In this document: piece by piece, positions 4,565-50,145 of the stretch
Numbering within the stretch: position 1 is the stretch's first letter
Layout of the letters: each line of letters opens with the position of its first letter
Assembly: GCF_014654725.1 (NCBI RefSeq)
Contig: NZ_JACVZV010000015.1
Coordinates: 186,001-250,000 of the forward strand
Length of the DNA: 64,000 nt
Direction of reading: 5' to 3'
Source: Vulcanococcus sp. Clear-D1
Lineage (GTDB): Bacteria > Cyanobacteriota > Cyanobacteriia > PCC-6307 > Cyanobiaceae
The notes under the pieces: generated by a model
What the model was told of the DNA's origin: nothing
The model's database searches: none
Seen by the model: only the letters and a program-made list of their open reading frames with translations
Translations under genes and position numbers: made by a program

Positions 4565-6715
4565 TCAGTCCTTCTGGATCTCCATCTGGGTTGGGAACGG
4601 AATCTCCACCTGATGGAGGGCAAAGCTGGCCAGTAGGTCTTGGTTCATCCGGTTGATCCCATCTTTGAAGGCGGCATAGCTGCTGTGGCTGCTGCGGAAA
4701 TCAAACTCGTAGTCGTAACTGAAGTCCGAGATCGCCATTAGCCGGCAGGAGCGCAGCGTGAAGGCGGGGTCTGATTCCACAACCTCCTTGATCCAGATCG
4801 GAATCTGGCGGAGCTGTTCGGCGGTTGTGTCGTACGACACGCCGATCACCACCCTTGATTTCGCCACCTGATCCTCGATCTGCTGCATGCGCAACAGCAC
4901 CGATTCCCGCAGCTCCAGGTAGGCCTGCCAGCCGTGCAGCTCAACGGTGGCGAAGCACACCAGCTCAAGGCCATCCTCCTGATTGCGTTCCACGCTCATC
5001 AGGCTGTGCAGGAGCTCGGGCCGTTGCTTCACCTCGGCACGGGTGTAGTGCAGCAGGTCTTCCACCTGTTCCGGGGTGAGCGGTTGGTTGAGGGCGTAGC
5101 GCATCTCGATGCCCTGCCTGGGCGCCAGGTCTGATCGCTGCGATCGCTGTGAGAAATTCACGATCGTGGCGTCATCGGCGATGGCGTTGGGAATCGTGAT
5201 CCGGCTATCGAGGGTCTGCAGCTCCAGGGATCGCAGGCCGATCTTGGTCACAAAGCCAAGGTTGTCTCCCACACGGCAAAACTCGCCGACCCGCAGCGGC
5301 CGATCGGTTTGGATCGAGAGGCCTGCAAAGAGATTGCCCAGGAGCTTGGAGGCGCCTAGGCCGATCGCCAGACCGGGGACGGCCGAAAAGGCCAGAACCG
5401 TTTCCGCGGGTAATCCCAGAAACAACAGTAGTTGGTAGATCAGTCCCACCATCGCGACAGCCCCAAGCGTGCGGCAGATCGGCATGACGAAATTGCTGAT
5501 CCGTTGCAGACGCAGCGTTGAGGTGCCGCCTCTGAGATACATCATCCATTCAGCGCTGGTGCGTCCGAGGGCCTCAAAAAAGAGGTAGGCCAACACGCTC
5601 GCCGACAGAAAGTAGATGATGTAAAAGCCGAAGGTTGCTACGACCAGCGGCGTGCCAGTGATGTTGATGGTGGAGTCAACGGTGATCAAGCTCAATCGGG
5701 TCAAGGGCAGGATCGGAACCATCAGCAACACCCTCCACCAGGCGATGTTGTCGGCCTGGAGCCCGCATGGTTCCCCGCTCTTGCTGCTGGCTGGGTCGCG
5801 GTAGGTCCCGATCAACCGCCGACCGAGCCAGGCGATGATCAATAGAAGTAAAGAGATGGTTAGCAGGGAAAATAGGATCTGGAAAAGTGTTTGTCCCCAG
5901 ATCTGCACTTCAATCAGCTGTCTTAGGTTGCTGGGTAGACGCAGGTACCACTTCGGTGGAACAAGGTAACCCGGCGTGAGTGAATAGAAGTCGTACAGGC
6001 CTGGAGTTGTAAACGGTGTCGATCTGACGGGCAACGTGCTGATCTCCTCGTACATCCGTTCGACCTGTTGAACGGTGCCTGCTGAGAACAGGTAGTTGCC
6101 GCTTTGGGAATCATTGCCGTCGTCCAGTCTTAAGACAATGGCTGTGCCAGGCAGGCGCCATTCGGAGACATCTTTCTCGAGTGATTCATTCAGTCTGAGA
6201 ATGGCATCGTGGTTGGGGATGTTAAATGTCTTTCGACTATTGCCGAAGACATAATCTAGAATCTGTTTGAGCTGGATTGCCGCTTCTTCGGCGCGGTCGG
6301 TTCTGACGCTCTTCGCGAAATCAGAGCTGTTCAGTGCTTCGACAGCCAGATTGAACCGCTTCTGCAGTCTGTTAATGCGTTGCTGGGCTGCCGGGCTCCA
6401 ATTGAACCCTGGATCCTTTTCGGCGCTGGCACTGATGGTGCGCATCTGATGGCCCACTTCGGCCATCACCACATAGAAATTCAGCAGGGTCGAACGGGGG
6501 TTATCGCCGATCACCTCGCCGAGAGGCACTGCTTCCCAGGTTTCCACCGCCTCGAGCAAGGCGGGATAGAAGGGTTGGCTGCTCAGGGGTACACCCTCGG
6601 CCACAGGCGCTCGCGGTGCTTCTCGAACCTGAGTGAGCCCCGGCAGCATCAACACCAGGCTGATCAGCAATCCGGTGAGGGCCGCCAGGGCTCGCCGGAT
6701 CCAGAACCTTGGCAT
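4565..6715 (-). CDS. Large MscS-family mechanosensitive channel
   Basis: A 716-aa protein with an N-terminal signal or membrane segment, a periplasmic region of roughly 240 residues, several membrane helices (about residues 265-450), and a typical MscS pore and beta domain. The pore-lining helix is Gly/Ala-rich (GLAIGLGASK) and is followed by the LRVGEF and SLELQTLDSRITIPN segments of the family. It probably opens under membrane tension to release solutes after osmotic downshock. ATG 6715 is preferred over 6751, which would leave only five bases to the divergent gene. The large periplasmic domain sets it apart from minimal MscS; a second MscS gene lies at 17999. Confidence 0.88.
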   Translation of the reverse strand: MPRFWIRRALAALTGLLISLVLMLPGLTQVREAPRAPVAEGVPLSSQPFYPALLEAVETWEAVPLGEVIGDNPRSTLLNFYVVMAEVGHQMRTISASAEKDPGFNWSPAAQQRINRLQKRFNLAVEALNSSDFAKSVRTDRAEEAAIQLKQILDYVFGNSRKTFNIPNHDAILRLNESLEKDVSEWRLPGTAIVLRLDDGNDSQSGNYLFSAGTVQQVERMYEEISTLPVRSTPFTTPGLYDFYSLTPGYLVPPKWYLRLPSNLRQLIEVQIWGQTLFQILFSLLTISLLLLIIAWLGRRLIGTYRDPASSKSGEPCGLQADNIAWWRVLLMVPILPLTRLSLITVDSTINITGTPLVVATFGFYIIYFLSASVLAYLFFEALGRTSAEWMMYLRGGTSTLRLQRISNFVMPICRTLGAVAMVGLIYQLLLFLGLPAETVLAFSAVPGLAIGLGASKLLGNLFAGLSIQTDRPLRVGEFCRVGDNLGFVTKIGLRSLELQTLDSRITIPNAIADDATIVNFSQRSQRSDLAPRQGIEMRYALNQPLTPEQVEDLLHYTRAEVKQRPELLHSLMSVERNQEDGLELVCFATVELHGWQAYLELRESVLLRMQQIEDQVAKSRVVIGVSYDTTAEQLRQIPIWIKEVVESDPAFTLRSCRLMAISDFSYDYEFDFRSSHSSYAAFKDGINRMNQDLLASFALHQVEIPFPTQMEIQKD

Positions 6716-6756
6716 CAGCATGGTCATTGTTGGTTCAATCATCGCTATCACTGCCG

Positions 6757-7170
6757 ATGAGTCGTCTGCGCCACGGGATGCGCCACACCGTGCTCGTTGG
6801 AGCTTCGCTGTTGCGGGAAGCGAGTGCCGGTGTTCTCGATGCCGTCGCTGAGCTGGCTGCTCCTCAGGGCCGTTCAGGCAACCTTGAACACGAGCTCGAA
6901 CTGGCGCGTCAACAGGGCCGTTGGCTCAGTGATGACGAGCGCGCCGAACTGGCAGTCAGTGAGCAACGTCGTGCCCAGAGGCGGCGCACGTTGCTGCTGC
7001 TGGCGGCACTGTCGCTGTTGATCCCGCTGTTCTGGCCATTGGTGCCGCTCTGGCTTGGGTTTCTCTGGTGGCCGGTTACCACCCGTCGCCTGCTGATGGG
7101 TGTTGTGGCTGCCGTTGCGGCGCTGATGGCTCTGCTGGTGGTGCTTGTTCTCTGGCTGTTGCTGCGATGA
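6757..7170 (+). CDS. Hypothetical membrane protein, 137 aa
   Basis: Unrecognised. ATG 6757 gives 137 residues (an internal ATG at 6778 is an alternative). The first half is soluble, acidic and probably helical; a short Arg-rich patch then leads into two hydrophobic segments at the C terminus, the second almost pure Leu, Val and Ala. The layout suggests a cytoplasmic helical domain anchored by a C-terminal hairpin of two membrane helices. The stop codon overlaps the ATG of the next gene (ATGA), so the three following genes are probably co-translated. Confidence 0.7.
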   Translation: MSRLRHGMRHTVLVGASLLREASAGVLDAVAELAAPQGRSGNLEHELELARQQGRWLSDDERAELAVSEQRRAQRRRTLLLLAALSLLIPLFWPLVPLWLGFLWWPVTTRRLLMGVVAAVAALMALLVVLVLWLLLR

Positions 7171-7807: not shown

Positions 7808-7831
7808 CCTGCCTCCTCCTTGGGCCTGGTG

Positions 7832-9346
7832 ATGCGCAACCTGTTCCGTTCAGCCTTGGCCCTGGCGGCTCTGGTGATCTCCACGGCGCCGGTGCGGGCG
7901 CTGGAAGAGGTGGTGGTGGAGCTGCCGCTGGTGGAGAACACGCTCACGGTGAAGCTGAGCGAGTTGAAGGATCCCGCAGCTCTGATGCAGGGCAGCAGCG
8001 ATTTGGCGGAACTGGATCGTGCCAGTGATGGCGAGCTGGGCCGCAAATTGCTCAAGTTGCTCAACCACCCAGTTCCGGTGAGTTTTCGCCAGTTGGCGGA
8101 GAGTTCCGTTGGCTCACCGCTGCTGGAGCAAACCCTGTTGCTGGTGTCGTCCTTCGGCACGGTGGAAGGCCGCAGCCCCGACCTCACTGGCGAGACGCTC
8201 AAGCAAGCCCTGGAGAAGGCCACGGCGGCATCAGCGGATGGTCAGCCCACGCTTCTTCAATTGATGGAAGCGATTCCCGGTGAACGGGTGCGGCTCAACA
8301 TGTCGCAAGCGCAGGTCGTTCTGGCGCGGATGCTGCGCCATCGCCGCCGTGCGGATCAGTTGATGGCTGCGGCGGTTCCCGCACCGGTGGCTACGCCCGC
8401 TGCACCCCGCTCCGCCGTTGCCGTGAGCCGCACAACCCTGGCGGTGTCGCATCGACCTGATCCGCTGGACTTGGTGGTGATGCAACCCAGCAGCGGCTCC
8501 CCGCGCGGCCTGGTTGTGATTTCCCATGGCCTCTGGGATAGCCCCACCAACTTCGAGGGCTGGGGGCAACGCTTGGCCGAGCAGGGCTATGCGGTGGTGC
8601 TGCCCCGCCATCCAGGCAGCGACAAGCATCAACAGCACGAGGTGCTCTCCGGCCAGGCACCACCGCCTTCACCGGCAGAGCTCGCGCTGCGGGCCAAGGA
8701 TGTGACTGCGATCAACGATGGGGTGGCTCAGGGCCGCCTGCCGGCGTTGGCTGGGGTGAACGCCGATCGGGTGGTGGTGATCGGCCATTCCTGGGGTGCC
8801 ACCACGGCGCTTCAACTGGCGGGTGTGAAACCGGAGGATCGCGCCCTGAAGGCACGCTGCGACAACCTTTCCGATCCCGATCGCAATCTCAGCTGGACGC
8901 TGCAATGCAGTTGGATCTCCGCGGTGGATCAAGCCGCAGTGGATGATCCGCGTGTGATCGCCGTTGCGGCGGTGAGCCCTCCGGTGTCGTTGCTGTTTCC
9001 CAAGGGATCTGCCAAGCAAATCACCGCTCGCGTGCTGCTGGTGAGCGGCACCCACGATTGGGTGGTTCCCCCGGATCCGGAAGCGGTGGAGCCCTTCACA
9101 ACCTCCAACCCCCAGGGCAACCAGCTGGTGCTTGTGCAAGGGGGAGATCACTTCAACTTGCGGCCTGGTCAATCCAGCGGCGGTGGGCCCGTGGCACCGC
9201 TGCTGCTGGAGTGGACCAATCGCGCCTTTGCAGCCGGCACTGCGGTGAAGCCCAGTCCCGGCGCCGCACCGTTGTTGCCGCAGGGCTCCTGGGGGAGCGA
9301 CGGCAAGGCGATGGCGGATGTCACCAACCGCTTGGAAGTTCAATAA
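7832..9346 (+). CDS. Secreted alpha/beta hydrolase with N-terminal DUF1400-like domain
   Basis: A 504-aa protein with a signal peptide ending near an Ala-rich VRALEE site, an N-terminal region of about 180 residues resembling the DUF1400 module of cyanobacterial exported hydrolases, and a C-terminal alpha/beta hydrolase. The nucleophile elbow is GHSWG (Ser320); the acid is probably the Asp in SGTHDW and the base the His in GGDHFN. It likely acts in the periplasm on esters or lipids, substrate unknown. ATG 7832 is chosen over an upstream TTG because it places the signal peptide at the N terminus. Confidence 0.85.
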   Translation: MRNLFRSALALAALVISTAPVRALEEVVVELPLVENTLTVKLSELKDPAALMQGSSDLAELDRASDGELGRKLLKLLNHPVPVSFRQLAESSVGSPLLEQTLLLVSSFGTVEGRSPDLTGETLKQALEKATAASADGQPTLLQLMEAIPGERVRLNMSQAQVVLARMLRHRRRADQLMAAAVPAPVATPAAPRSAVAVSRTTLAVSHRPDPLDLVVMQPSSGSPRGLVVISHGLWDSPTNFEGWGQRLAEQGYAVVLPRHPGSDKHQQHEVLSGQAPPPSPAELALRAKDVTAINDGVAQGRLPALAGVNADRVVVIGHSWGATTALQLAGVKPEDRALKARCDNLSDPDRNLSWTLQCSWISAVDQAAVDDPRVIAVAAVSPPVSLLFPKGSAKQITARVLLVSGTHDWVVPPDPEAVEPFTTSNPQGNQLVLVQGGDHFNLRPGQSSGGGPVAPLLLEWTNRAFAAGTAVKPSPGAAPLLPQGSWGSDGKAMADVTNRLEVQ

Positions 9347-9390
9347 GCTCACGCGCGCTGAATCTTTAGGTAGTGGTGCTCATGGCTGCT

Positions 9391-9453
9391 CTTCGCTTGG
9401 CCCGCTTTGCTGGCGCCGAAGCCTCCTCACACAGCCCGCATGGGCTGTTTTTT
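9391..9453 (+). ncRNA. yfr1: Yfr1-like small RNA
   Basis: Three parts stand in the order known for cyanobacterial Yfr1: a 5' hairpin (CTTCG at 9391-9395 pairing with CGAAG at 9417-9421, with an inner GCC/GGC stem), a single-stranded CTCCTCACAC at 9423-9432, and a 3' intrinsic terminator. The published Yfr1 core is ACUCCUCACAC; here the first base is C and the next ten match exactly. Yfr1 is a trans-acting RNA that binds target mRNAs, including porin mRNAs in Prochlorococcus. No clear promoter is visible, and the exact 5' end is a guess. Confidence 0.5.
9432..9453 (+). terminator. Intrinsic terminator
   Basis: A 6-bp GC-rich stem (cagccc 9432-9437 with gggctg 9442-9447), extended by an A-T pair, has a 4-base loop and is followed by six T residues (9448-9453). 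It would end transcripts coming from the hydrolase gene or the Yfr1-like RNA. Confidence 0.85.
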
Positions 9454-9514
9454 ATGGCAGCTGGAGCCGCAGCAGTGGCGTTCTGATTAGCGTCTGACCT
9501 GCTCCTTCGGCTGC

Positions 9515-10315
9515 GTGCGTCCTTACTTCCTGCTCGAACCTGGAGATGGGCTGCTGCTCTGCGGTCCCGATGGCTCGATCAGTCATCTGGACCGCACCGC
9601 CGCGATTCGGCTCGGCATCAAGGCGGAGAGTTGGTGCGGCCAGAGCCTGAAGCAGGTCTGGCCTGCGTTGGCCGACCTGATCATTCAGGAACGGGACCGG
9701 CTGCGGGCGGGCCCCCGCGACCACGTGGTGGCGCTGGCCCAACCCACCCAGATTGAGTTGGCCACACGCATTCGCCTCTTCCGCACGGATTGCGGCTTCG
9801 GTGCCGGCATCCTGCGGCGCCGCACCCAGCGTTTGCATGACGTCGAACCCGATGCGCCGGAAGACACCTATCGCCTCTTGCTGGAGGCGGTTCTCGATAC
9901 GGCCCAGGACGCGGTGTTGGTGACCCTGGCCGAACCGTTGGATTCTCCCGGGCCGCTGATTGTGTTTGCCAATCAATCGCTCCTCGATCAAACCGGCTAT
10001 GGCCTGCATGAAGTGCTGGGGCGTAGTCCAAGGCTGTTTCAAGGGCCAGACACCTGCCGCGACAGCACAGCCCGGTTACGGCGCGCCATGGATCAGTGGC
10101 AGCCATCCCGGATGCAGGTGCTCAACTACCGGCGCGACGGTTCCACCTGCTGGATCGACCTGAAGGTGGCTCCCCTGGCCGACCCCACGGGTTGGCACAC
10201 CCATTGGGTGTCCGTGCAGCGCGACGTGACCGATCGCGTTGCCCATGAACAGCGTCTGGCTCAGGAGGCTCTCGCCTTGGCTGAACGGCTGCATGCCGGC
10301 GTTCCGATCGCCTGA
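9515..10315 (+). CDS. LOV-like PAS domain protein lacking the photoactive Cys
   Basis: A 266-aa protein from GTG 9515. Residues 1-110 may be a degenerate PAS-like module. Residues about 125-240 form a PAS domain with strong LOV character: an NQSLLDQTGY helix, GRSPRLFQG at 169-177, LNYRRDGS and a closing QRDVTDR. In flavin-binding LOV domains the motif is GRNCRFLQ; here the cysteine position is Pro172, so the usual photocycle adduct cannot form. No kinase, GGDEF or helix-turn-helix output domain follows, only a short helix. It may sense redox state or act as a partner protein. It lies 60 bases downstream of the terminator. Confidence 0.75.
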   Translation: MRPYFLLEPGDGLLLCGPDGSISHLDRTAAIRLGIKAESWCGQSLKQVWPALADLIIQERDRLRAGPRDHVVALAQPTQIELATRIRLFRTDCGFGAGILRRRTQRLHDVEPDAPEDTYRLLLEAVLDTAQDAVLVTLAEPLDSPGPLIVFANQSLLDQTGYGLHEVLGRSPRLFQGPDTCRDSTARLRRAMDQWQPSRMQVLNYRRDGSTCWIDLKVAPLADPTGWHTHWVSVQRDVTDRVAHEQRLAQEALALAERLHAGVPIA

Positions 10316-47499: not shown

Positions 47500-50145
47500 T
47501 CAGGGCACCAGGTTCACGAGCTTGCCCGGCACCACGATCACGCGGCTGGGGGTTTTGCCCTCCAGCCACTTGGCCGCGATGTCGCTCTCGAGGGCTAGCT
47601 TCTCCAGCGTGGCCTTGTCGGCATCGGCGGGCACCTCCAGGTTGCCGCGCACTTTGCCCTTGATCTGAATCACCAGGGTCACGGTGTCGCGCACCAGGGC
47701 GCTGGCATCGGCTGCGGGCCAGCGCTGGGCGTGGATGCTGCTGCTGGCCAGGGCATCGCCGGCATTGCGGCCGCTGAGCTTCAGCCAGAGCTCTTCGGCC
47801 AGGTGGGGCGCAAAGGGTGCCAGCAGGATCAGCAGCGTGCGCAGCGCCTCGCAGGCGAACACCTCTCCGCAATTTTCCAGGTGGGTGCCCATGGCGTTGC
47901 TGAGCTTCATCAGCTCCGACACGGCGGTGTTGAACTGATAGTCGCCATCGAGGTCGTCGCTGATCTCGGTGATGGCGGTGTGCACCGCTCGCCGCAGCTC
48001 TTGCTCGGCGGGGTTCAGTGATCCGGCGGCCAGGGCCTGGACCACGGCCTCGGGGCCACCGGCACCCGCCGCCAGGCTCAGGCCGCGCTCGCAGGCACCA
48101 TCCACCAGGCGCCAGATCCGCTGCAGGAAACGGAACTGCCCCTCCACATCGGCGTCGTCCCACTCGAGATCCTTCTCCGGCGGCGCCTTGAACAGGATGA
48201 ACATCCGGGCGGTATCTGCGCCGTACTTGTCGATGACAACAGCCGGATCCACGCCGTTGTACTTCGACTTCGACATCTTTTCGTAGAACGTCTCCAGCAC
48301 TTCGCCACTGGCCGGATCGCGTGGATCGGTGGGATCGGCCACATCCGCCGGAGCGATGTATTTGCCGGTGTGGGGGTTCTTGTAGGTGATGCCCTGCACC
48401 ATGCCCTGGGTGAGCAGGCGCTGGAAGGGTTCATCGAAGCCGAGCAGGCCCCGGTCGCGCAGCACCTTGGTGAAGAAGCGCGAGTAGAGCAGGTGCAGGA
48501 TCGCGTGTTCGATGCCGCCCACGTATTGATCCACGGGCAGCCAGCTGTTCACGGCGTCCTCGCTGAAGGGACGCGTGGTGTTCGTTGCGTCGCTGTAGCG
48601 CAGGTAATACCAGCTGGAACACATAAAGGTGTCCATGGTGTCGGTCTCGCGCTTGGCGGGCTGACCGCAGCAGGGGCAGCTCACGTTCACCCAGTTCTCC
48701 AGCTGCGCCAGGGGGGAGCCGCCCTTGCCGGCGAGGTTGGCGCCCTGCGGCAGTTCCACCGGCAGCTGATCGGCGGGCACGGGCACGACGCCGCAGCTGT
48801 CGCAGTGGATCACCGGGATCGGGCATCCCCAGTAGCGCTGGCGCGAGATCAGCCAGTCGCGCAGACGGAACTGCACCTTCTCCTGACCCCAGCCCTCCGC
48901 CGCAGCGGCCGAGGTGATCGCCTGTTTGGCGTCGCCATTCGGCAGGCCATCAAAGCGGCCGGAGTGGATCAGTACACCCCCCTCTGTCCAGGCGCCGCCT
49001 TCGAAGGCGTGTTCATCACTCCCTTCGGGAATGATCACTTGCTGCACCGGCAGTTCGTACTGGCGGGCAAACAGAAAATCGCGCTGGTCGTGGGCTGGCA
49101 CACCCATCACTGCGCCGGTGCCGTATTCGGCCAGCACATAGTCGGCGATCCAGATCGGGATCAGTTCATCGTTGGCGGGATTGCGCACCTGGGCGCCAAT
49201 CGGCACGCCGCGCTTCGGTTTGTCTTCGGCGGTGCGCTCCTGTTCGCTCTGGCGCGACACCAGATCGCAAAAGGCTTCCACGGCGATCTCCTGCTCGGCC
49301 GTGGTGAGTTCCGCCACCAGCGGATGCTCCGGTGCCAACACCACATAGGAGGCGCCGAAGATTGTGTCGGGCCGGGTGGTGAATACGGTGATTCGCTCAG
49401 CCGTGTCGTGACCGGCGGCATCCACCACCGTGAACTGCAGTTCGGCGCCGGTGCTGCGGCCGATCCAGTTGGCCTGCATGGTGCGCACGCGCTCCGGCCA
49501 ACCGTCGAGCTGGCTCAGGTCGTCGAGCAGTTGCTGGGCGTAATCGGTGATTTTCAGGAACCACTGGCGCAGCTTGCGCTTCTCCACCAAGGCGCCGGAA
49601 CGCCAGGAGCGGCCTTCGCTGTCCACCTGCTCATTGGCGAGCACGGTCTGATCGATCGGATCCCAGTTGACCGTGGCGTCCTTCTGATAGGCCAGCCCGG
49701 AATCAAGGAAGTGCAGGAACAGCCACTGGGTCCAGCGGTAGTAATCGGCGTGGCAGGTGGCCACCTCGCGTTCCCAATCGATCGAGAGACCCAGCTGGTT
49801 GAGCTGCTCCCGCATCGAGGCGATGTTTTGATCGGTCCAGGCGCCGGGATCCACGCCCCGCTCAATCGCCGCGTTCTCTGCTGGCAGGCCGAAGGCATCC
49901 CAGCCCATCGGATGCAGGACCTTTTTGCCCCGCAGCCGCTGCACCCGCGCCACCACATCGGTGATCACGTAGTTGCGCACATGGCCCATGTGCAGATTCC
50001 CCGAGGGATAGGGGAACATCGATAGGGCGTAGAAGGCGTCGTCGCCGGGTTTCAGCTCTGGCGTGTCGTGCAGGCCGTTCTCCTGCCAGGCCCGTTGCCA
50101 GCCGGTCTCGATCGCCTGGGGTTGGTAGCGGCTGCTCTCGCTCAC
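47500..50145 (-). CDS. leuS: Leucyl-tRNA synthetase
   Basis: An 881-aa class Ia synthetase: HMGH-type motif in [19 protein letters not shown] loop in [10 protein letters not shown], a large editing domain with the [12 protein letters not shown] segment, and an anticodon-binding C-terminal region. It charges tRNA-Leu and clears misacylated products. GTG 50145 precedes the conserved [14 protein letters not shown]; the frame runs 25 codons upstream but without family similarity. It lies 49 bases downstream of hfq on the same strand. Confidence 0.97.

Follow-up and report, generated by a model that had tools for sequence, protein, structure and literature searches.

What is the short segment at 9391–9453 of the window (the whole 64,000-nucleotide stretch of DNA that was analysed): a displaced copy of the cyanobacterial small RNA Yfr1, a small RNA of its own, or the end of the gene before it? 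A sequence-only reading had placed it between a hydrolase gene and a PAS gene, and this location holds, with an alpha/beta hydrolase with DUF1400 (7820–9346, + strand) upstream and a PAS-domain protein (9515–10315, + strand) downstream, both outside the proposed RNA. At 9423–9432 (+), the proposed seed CTCCTCACAC reproduces the 11-base Yfr1 motif in 10 positions and leads directly into an intrinsic terminator (9431–9453, +), ACAGCCC-GCAT-GGGCTGT, whose 7-bp stem and GCAT loop span 9431–9448 and whose run of six T occupies 9448–9453. The 11-mer of the element is CCTCCTCACAC, in which C replaces A at motif base 1, and ACTCCTCACAC has no match within the window. The folding energy of 9391–9453 is −24.3 kcal/mol (z −2.54), a value equalled or bettered by 3 of 200 shuffles. 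The same reading had held that this would be the sole regulatory RNA in the window, and Rfam at gathering scores agrees, matching just a tRNA there and revealing no Yfr2 neighbour within the window.

The 10-mer CTCCTCACAC occurs twice in the window against a shuffle mean of 0.28, a count reached by 4 of 100 shuffles, and the second copy (18405) has no T run behind it; taken alone, the 10-mer proves little. These counts would allow that a chance match merely stands next to the terminator of an ordinary gene. However, a search of 149 genomes with the DNA query 9347–9514 recovered the element in its own genome and in eleven others of the same genus, and the block GAAGCCTCCTCACACAGC (9418–9435, +; alignment A2 columns 42–59) is identical over 18 consecutive columns in 12 of 12 genomes, with the caveat that the twelve sequences were recovered by similarity to the element region, which favours invariance there. 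Meanwhile the hydrolase diverges down to 55% protein identity, and its four-fold sites match those of the window at 34–69% in nine other comparable genomes. Because these 18 consecutive columns are invariant in all twelve genomes, the element stands above chance. A chance origin, rejected on this conservation against the diverged four-fold sites of the hydrolase, is vanishingly improbable.

The sequence-only reading had interpreted the element as Yfr1 in an unusual position, and had proposed both a search of its surroundings with the Yfr1 covariance model and a search for another copy in the genome. According to the available part of PMC2190773, Yfr1 carries a perfectly conserved ACUCCUCACAC, and its gene lies mostly between guaB and trxA. 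The covariance model (Rfam RF01116) gave no match at E≤10 in the 401 bases around the element, nor did it at E≤1 across the surrounding 3 kb (L022); a relaxed-threshold Rfam search around the element returned four matches, all far under their gathering scores. The search for another copy found a far better one on contig C30, the first of the two observations that the sequence-only reading had named as counting against it. This copy reaches 65.6 bits, where the cut-off is 38, and occupies the standard guaB-yfr1-trxA place, flanked by an IMP-dehydrogenase-like ORF upstream and a thioredoxin-like ORF downstream (both names being readings of translations made without a family search). A whole-genome RF01116 search, in which 150 of 687 candidates were scored, likewise listed the C30 copy and not the window element. 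The common 10-mer, the terminator and a size within the right range would suit the genome's true Yfr1 relocated from guaB-trxA, but the canonical gene in its usual place, the failure of RF01116 to match, and a C at motif base 1 in 12 of 12 sequences make this extremely unlikely, and we rejected relocation on finding the second, canonical copy. The element does resemble Yfr1 in being short and in holding 10 of 11 motif bases, mostly unpaired by prediction, ahead of a GC-rich terminator; it differs in its first motif base, in its location away from guaB and trxA, and in a two-base overlap of the motif with the terminator stem. Because a canonical copy exists on C30, RF01116 does not match the element, the perfect ACUCCUCACAC is replaced by CCTCCTCACAC in all twelve sequences, and motif and terminator overlap by two bases, we conclude that the element is not Yfr1 but is distinct from it.

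The overlap also bears on the further suggestion that the element has exactly the Yfr1 layout, in which, as the accessible text of PMC2190773 describes it, the motif sits in an unpaired stretch of 16–20 nt between two helices. In Yfr1 the 5' helix has 6–10 bp, and the GC-rich 3' helix, with its U tail, has 6–9 bp. The placement of the core before a terminator stood; its wholly single-stranded character did not, as the last two bases of CTCCTCACAC are predicted to be paired inside the terminator stem. For motif positions 2–8, the predicted unpaired share is 75% or more in 8 of the 12 sequences; in the other 4, these positions are predicted to be partly paired. The GC-rich 3' terminator helix retains all 7 base pairs in 12 of 12 sequences and is the sole conserved helix reported by RNAalifold for this set, which yielded no 5' helix. 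When the 5' hairpin predicted for the window sequence was tested as named pairs, 67.4% of cells were paired and 4 pairs showed two-sided changes. Taken jointly, the two helices have 80.1% of cells paired, a share that 3 of 500 shuffles attain and that compares with 30.6–49.1% in slid controls; 4 of 500 shuffles attain their covariation score. Among the twelve sequences no stem enclosing the motif is conserved, and the motif precedes the terminator in every one.

An open frame of 34 codons from the ATG at 9382, read by hand in the window sequence, raises the alternative that the locus encodes a small protein. This ATG is present in just 7 of the 12 sequences, however, and the varying length of the terminator loop shifts the frame. 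As neither start codon nor frame is maintained, the element is non-coding; a conserved small protein was thus rejected and is, in our estimate, highly unlikely.

A more serious alternative is that the motif and terminator are simply the 3' end of the hydrolase mRNA, acting in cis or released from it by processing. The element lies about 36 bases behind the hydrolase stop, 10 of 12 genomes have that gene immediately before it, and a sigma-70 consensus scan of 9250–9550 found no promoter. Yet two carriers, G004 and G014, keep the element without the hydrolase in front, their hydrolase being located elsewhere; upstream of the element both have a homologue of window ORF 6709–7167, and G014 has a pyruvyl transferase homologue downstream. 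Furthermore, the TCCTCACA core is absent behind 60 of 60 other hydrolase copies (59 from other genera and one from G016; within about 440–590 bases downstream), and among 15 hydrolase loci examined within the genus, which include three fragments as well as G004 and G014, it appears only at the known carrier G010. Finally, an upstream box, TAGGT or TGAGT, is maintained in 12 of 12 sequences at a fixed distance (GT-N10-AT) from a conserved AT. By its position in the aligned upstream sequences, this box (TAGGTA, 9367–9372, +) may constitute the −10 region of a promoter and the AT its start site. We therefore consider a mere mRNA 3' end unlikely and favour an RNA that would start from its own weak promoter.

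In the window the element is followed by the PAS protein and then by a polysaccharide pyruvyl transferase. Of the 12 genomes, 6 have the PAS gene as the immediate downstream neighbour and 3 have it 0.83–0.86 kb away; in the remaining 3 it was not seen within the stretch examined.

To define the distribution of the element, we built a covariance model (R1) from the 12 element sequences, which recovers all 12 and adds none. The proposed RNA of about 70 nt, 9382–9453 (+), with a putative 5' end, scores 89.4 bits with this model, a value that reflects a model built from the window sequence itself and 11 others. Among 25 genomes of the genus, the 12 match at 79.9–92.2 bits and the next best reaches 23.9; among 400 genomes of the family, the strong matches are the same 12. 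At E≤0.1, 71 of the 400 family genomes are matched, the best outside the 12 scoring 30.3 bits, and inspection of 35 weaker loci showed many to be terminators and several to lie next to a tRNA. One of the 35, L095 (G412:C76:13072–13105, − strand; R1 23 bits), from another genus of the family, has CCTCCTCACAC directly ahead of a GC-rich terminator, and is the sole one with CCTCCTCACAC at the matched place. Of the 14 genus genomes with a completeness of 90% or more and a contamination of 5% or less, 10 carry the element by hand tally; G006, G007, G011 and G016 lack it. A pattern scan of named genomes returned five loci, in a Vulcanococcus sp., a Cyanobium sp. (pond) and three cyanobacterial MAGs, which suggests that the carrier genus is close to Vulcanococcus. 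No link to phages emerged: the motif-terminator pattern had 0 matches in viral contigs, and blastn gave no match in phage records.

In a tree built from the hydrolases of 21 members of the genus, the 12 carriers fall within 16 rows and five non-carriers lie separately. The carrier label requires 4 changes on this tree, which is midpoint-rooted and carries a long-branch warning; at least 3 of these are forced by well-supported branches, the shuffled mean is 7.0, 9 of 500 shuffles are as low, and a single change occurs in no bootstrap tree. This pattern would fit one gain with losses, or several gains may have occurred instead.

A small regulatory RNA with a Yfr1 core ahead of a terminator, as the sequence-only reading had envisaged, is thus probable from the conservation and the terminator. 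We consider it likely, largely by analogy, that the element is a lineage-restricted trans-acting sRNA of about 70 nt, belonging to the Yfr1-motif class, with its own weak promoter and separate from Yfr1. Given the different first motif base and a transcription that is still putative, membership in that class is probable, not proved. In the proposed mechanism, the RNA would start downstream of the hydrolase gene, at the weak promoter, and end at the terminator 9431–9453, and its mostly single-stranded CCUCCUCAC would serve as an anti-Shine-Dalgarno-like seed for sites of the GUGAGGAGG type in ribosome-binding regions, hindering translation by analogy with Yfr1. In Nostoc, Yfr1 represses mraY and murC by base-pairing at the ribosome-binding region through its conserved motif, as set out in the consulted portion of PMC6974561, and in Prochlorococcus, the interaction with ppa depends on UCCU, with Yfr2 as a competitor for the motif (PMC6778093, in part). 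The additional conserved GAAGC might give the element a wider or shifted target set, and Yfr2-type RNAs could titrate it.

We also screened the genome for potential targets. The pattern GTGAGGAGN1-24ATG occurs at 26 sites and its reversed form at 10, a comparison confounded by Shine-Dalgarno sequences and including the yfr1 reverse strand. Half of the 26 sites (13) fall within long open frames on the same strand; of the remaining 13, 3 stand ahead of an ORF of 100 aa or more, and the screen is weak. The top duplex predicted for this RNA (−28.8 kcal/mol; −21.4 for Yfr1) involves an ORF of 251 aa on contig C24 (L260), at its ribosome-binding region; we regard this ORF as a predicted target of value as a lead only.

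Comparison with known RNAs places the element alongside several others that share the motif. In the Prochlorococcus literature available in part (PMC6778093, PMC2518516), Yfr10, with Yfr18 and the variant Yfr12, is likewise an extra motif RNA that exists beside Yfr1 and has little else in common with Yfr1 in sequence or place. The Yfr10 motif is described as lying in a loop atop a stem (the relevant passages of PMC6778093), whereas that of the element precedes the terminator; as modelled, then, the element is not of the Yfr10 build. Yfr12, with two motif changes, is still counted in the Yfr1-motif class (PMC2518516, as excerpted). Syr5, Nostoc TSS 2515196r and 3750139f, and Yfr104 are further Yfr1-motif sRNAs (PMC6778093, available sections), which we liken to the element by description alone. 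The Yfr2 family is a partner, not a relative, its motif being nearly complementary to that of Yfr1 (PMC6778093), and by analogy Yfr2 could pair with the element.

In the literature examined, available in part, extra Yfr1-motif sRNAs are known from Prochlorococcus, one marine Synechococcus, Synechocystis and Nostoc. In the main texts available, the passages on Yfr10, CUCCUCACAC and Yfr104 contain no description of the window element, and a literature search for Vulcanococcus and RNA produced nothing to the point. In the genomes sampled, the element is confined to part of one genus, where it coexists with canonical Yfr1, and its seed is kept to the letter despite altered surroundings. If expressed, it would present a good case for the copying of a core sRNA motif into new RNAs, and for how such RNAs split targets and share the Yfr2 antagonist. 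One tentative scenario, possible but on the doubtful side, is that the element is a new sRNA with a single origin, downstream of the hydrolase gene, in the common ancestor of a sub-clade within one picocyanobacterial genus, with the Yfr1 seed set directly on the terminator; a fixed A-to-C change and the added GAAGC would have given it its own target set, within a network of several Yfr1-motif RNAs in one genome (Yfr1, the motif-on-stem copies and the ATTCCTCACAC copy described below) that would compete for mRNAs and Yfr2.

The genome contains other copies of the motif, with five matches to ACTCCTCACAC against 2 for a reversed control pattern and fifteen to CTCCTCACAC against 3 for its control pattern. 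At G000:C2:19578–19638 (+; L053, L220), a Yfr1-like ATTCCTCACAC stands ahead of a terminator and scores 22.7 bits with RF01116, under the cut-off; its upstream stretch is conserved, and an ATTCCTCACAC or ACTCCTCACAC version is found in the 12 genus genomes whose loci were examined. On the − strand of G000:C24, at 126083, 225423 and 232211 (L013, L015, L016), ACTCCTCACAC forms part of the loop that caps a GC-rich stem, as has been described for Yfr10, with RF01116 scores of 13–16.6 bits; two of these three have, on the opposite strand 0.5–1.4 kb away, a small ORF with CTCCTCACAC in its leader. Shortly upstream of start codons, CTCCTCACAC or CTCCTCAC occurs at L017, L012, L014, L008, L009 and at C10:49085–49138 and 50066–50121 (L250, L054). 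One of these, CTCCTCACAC/CTCCTCAC, is located 30 bases before a transketolase-like ORF, so named from its translation, and on C10 two ORFs that resemble each other have the motif in their leaders, each time behind a hairpin. Such start-codon-proximal copies could be pyrimidine-rich leaders or Yfr2 targets. Lastly, contig C18 carries two pairs of identical places, 86306 with 142399 and 94643 with 150736, both separated by exactly 56,093 bases; either a large segment is duplicated in direct orientation or the assembly has produced the repeat.
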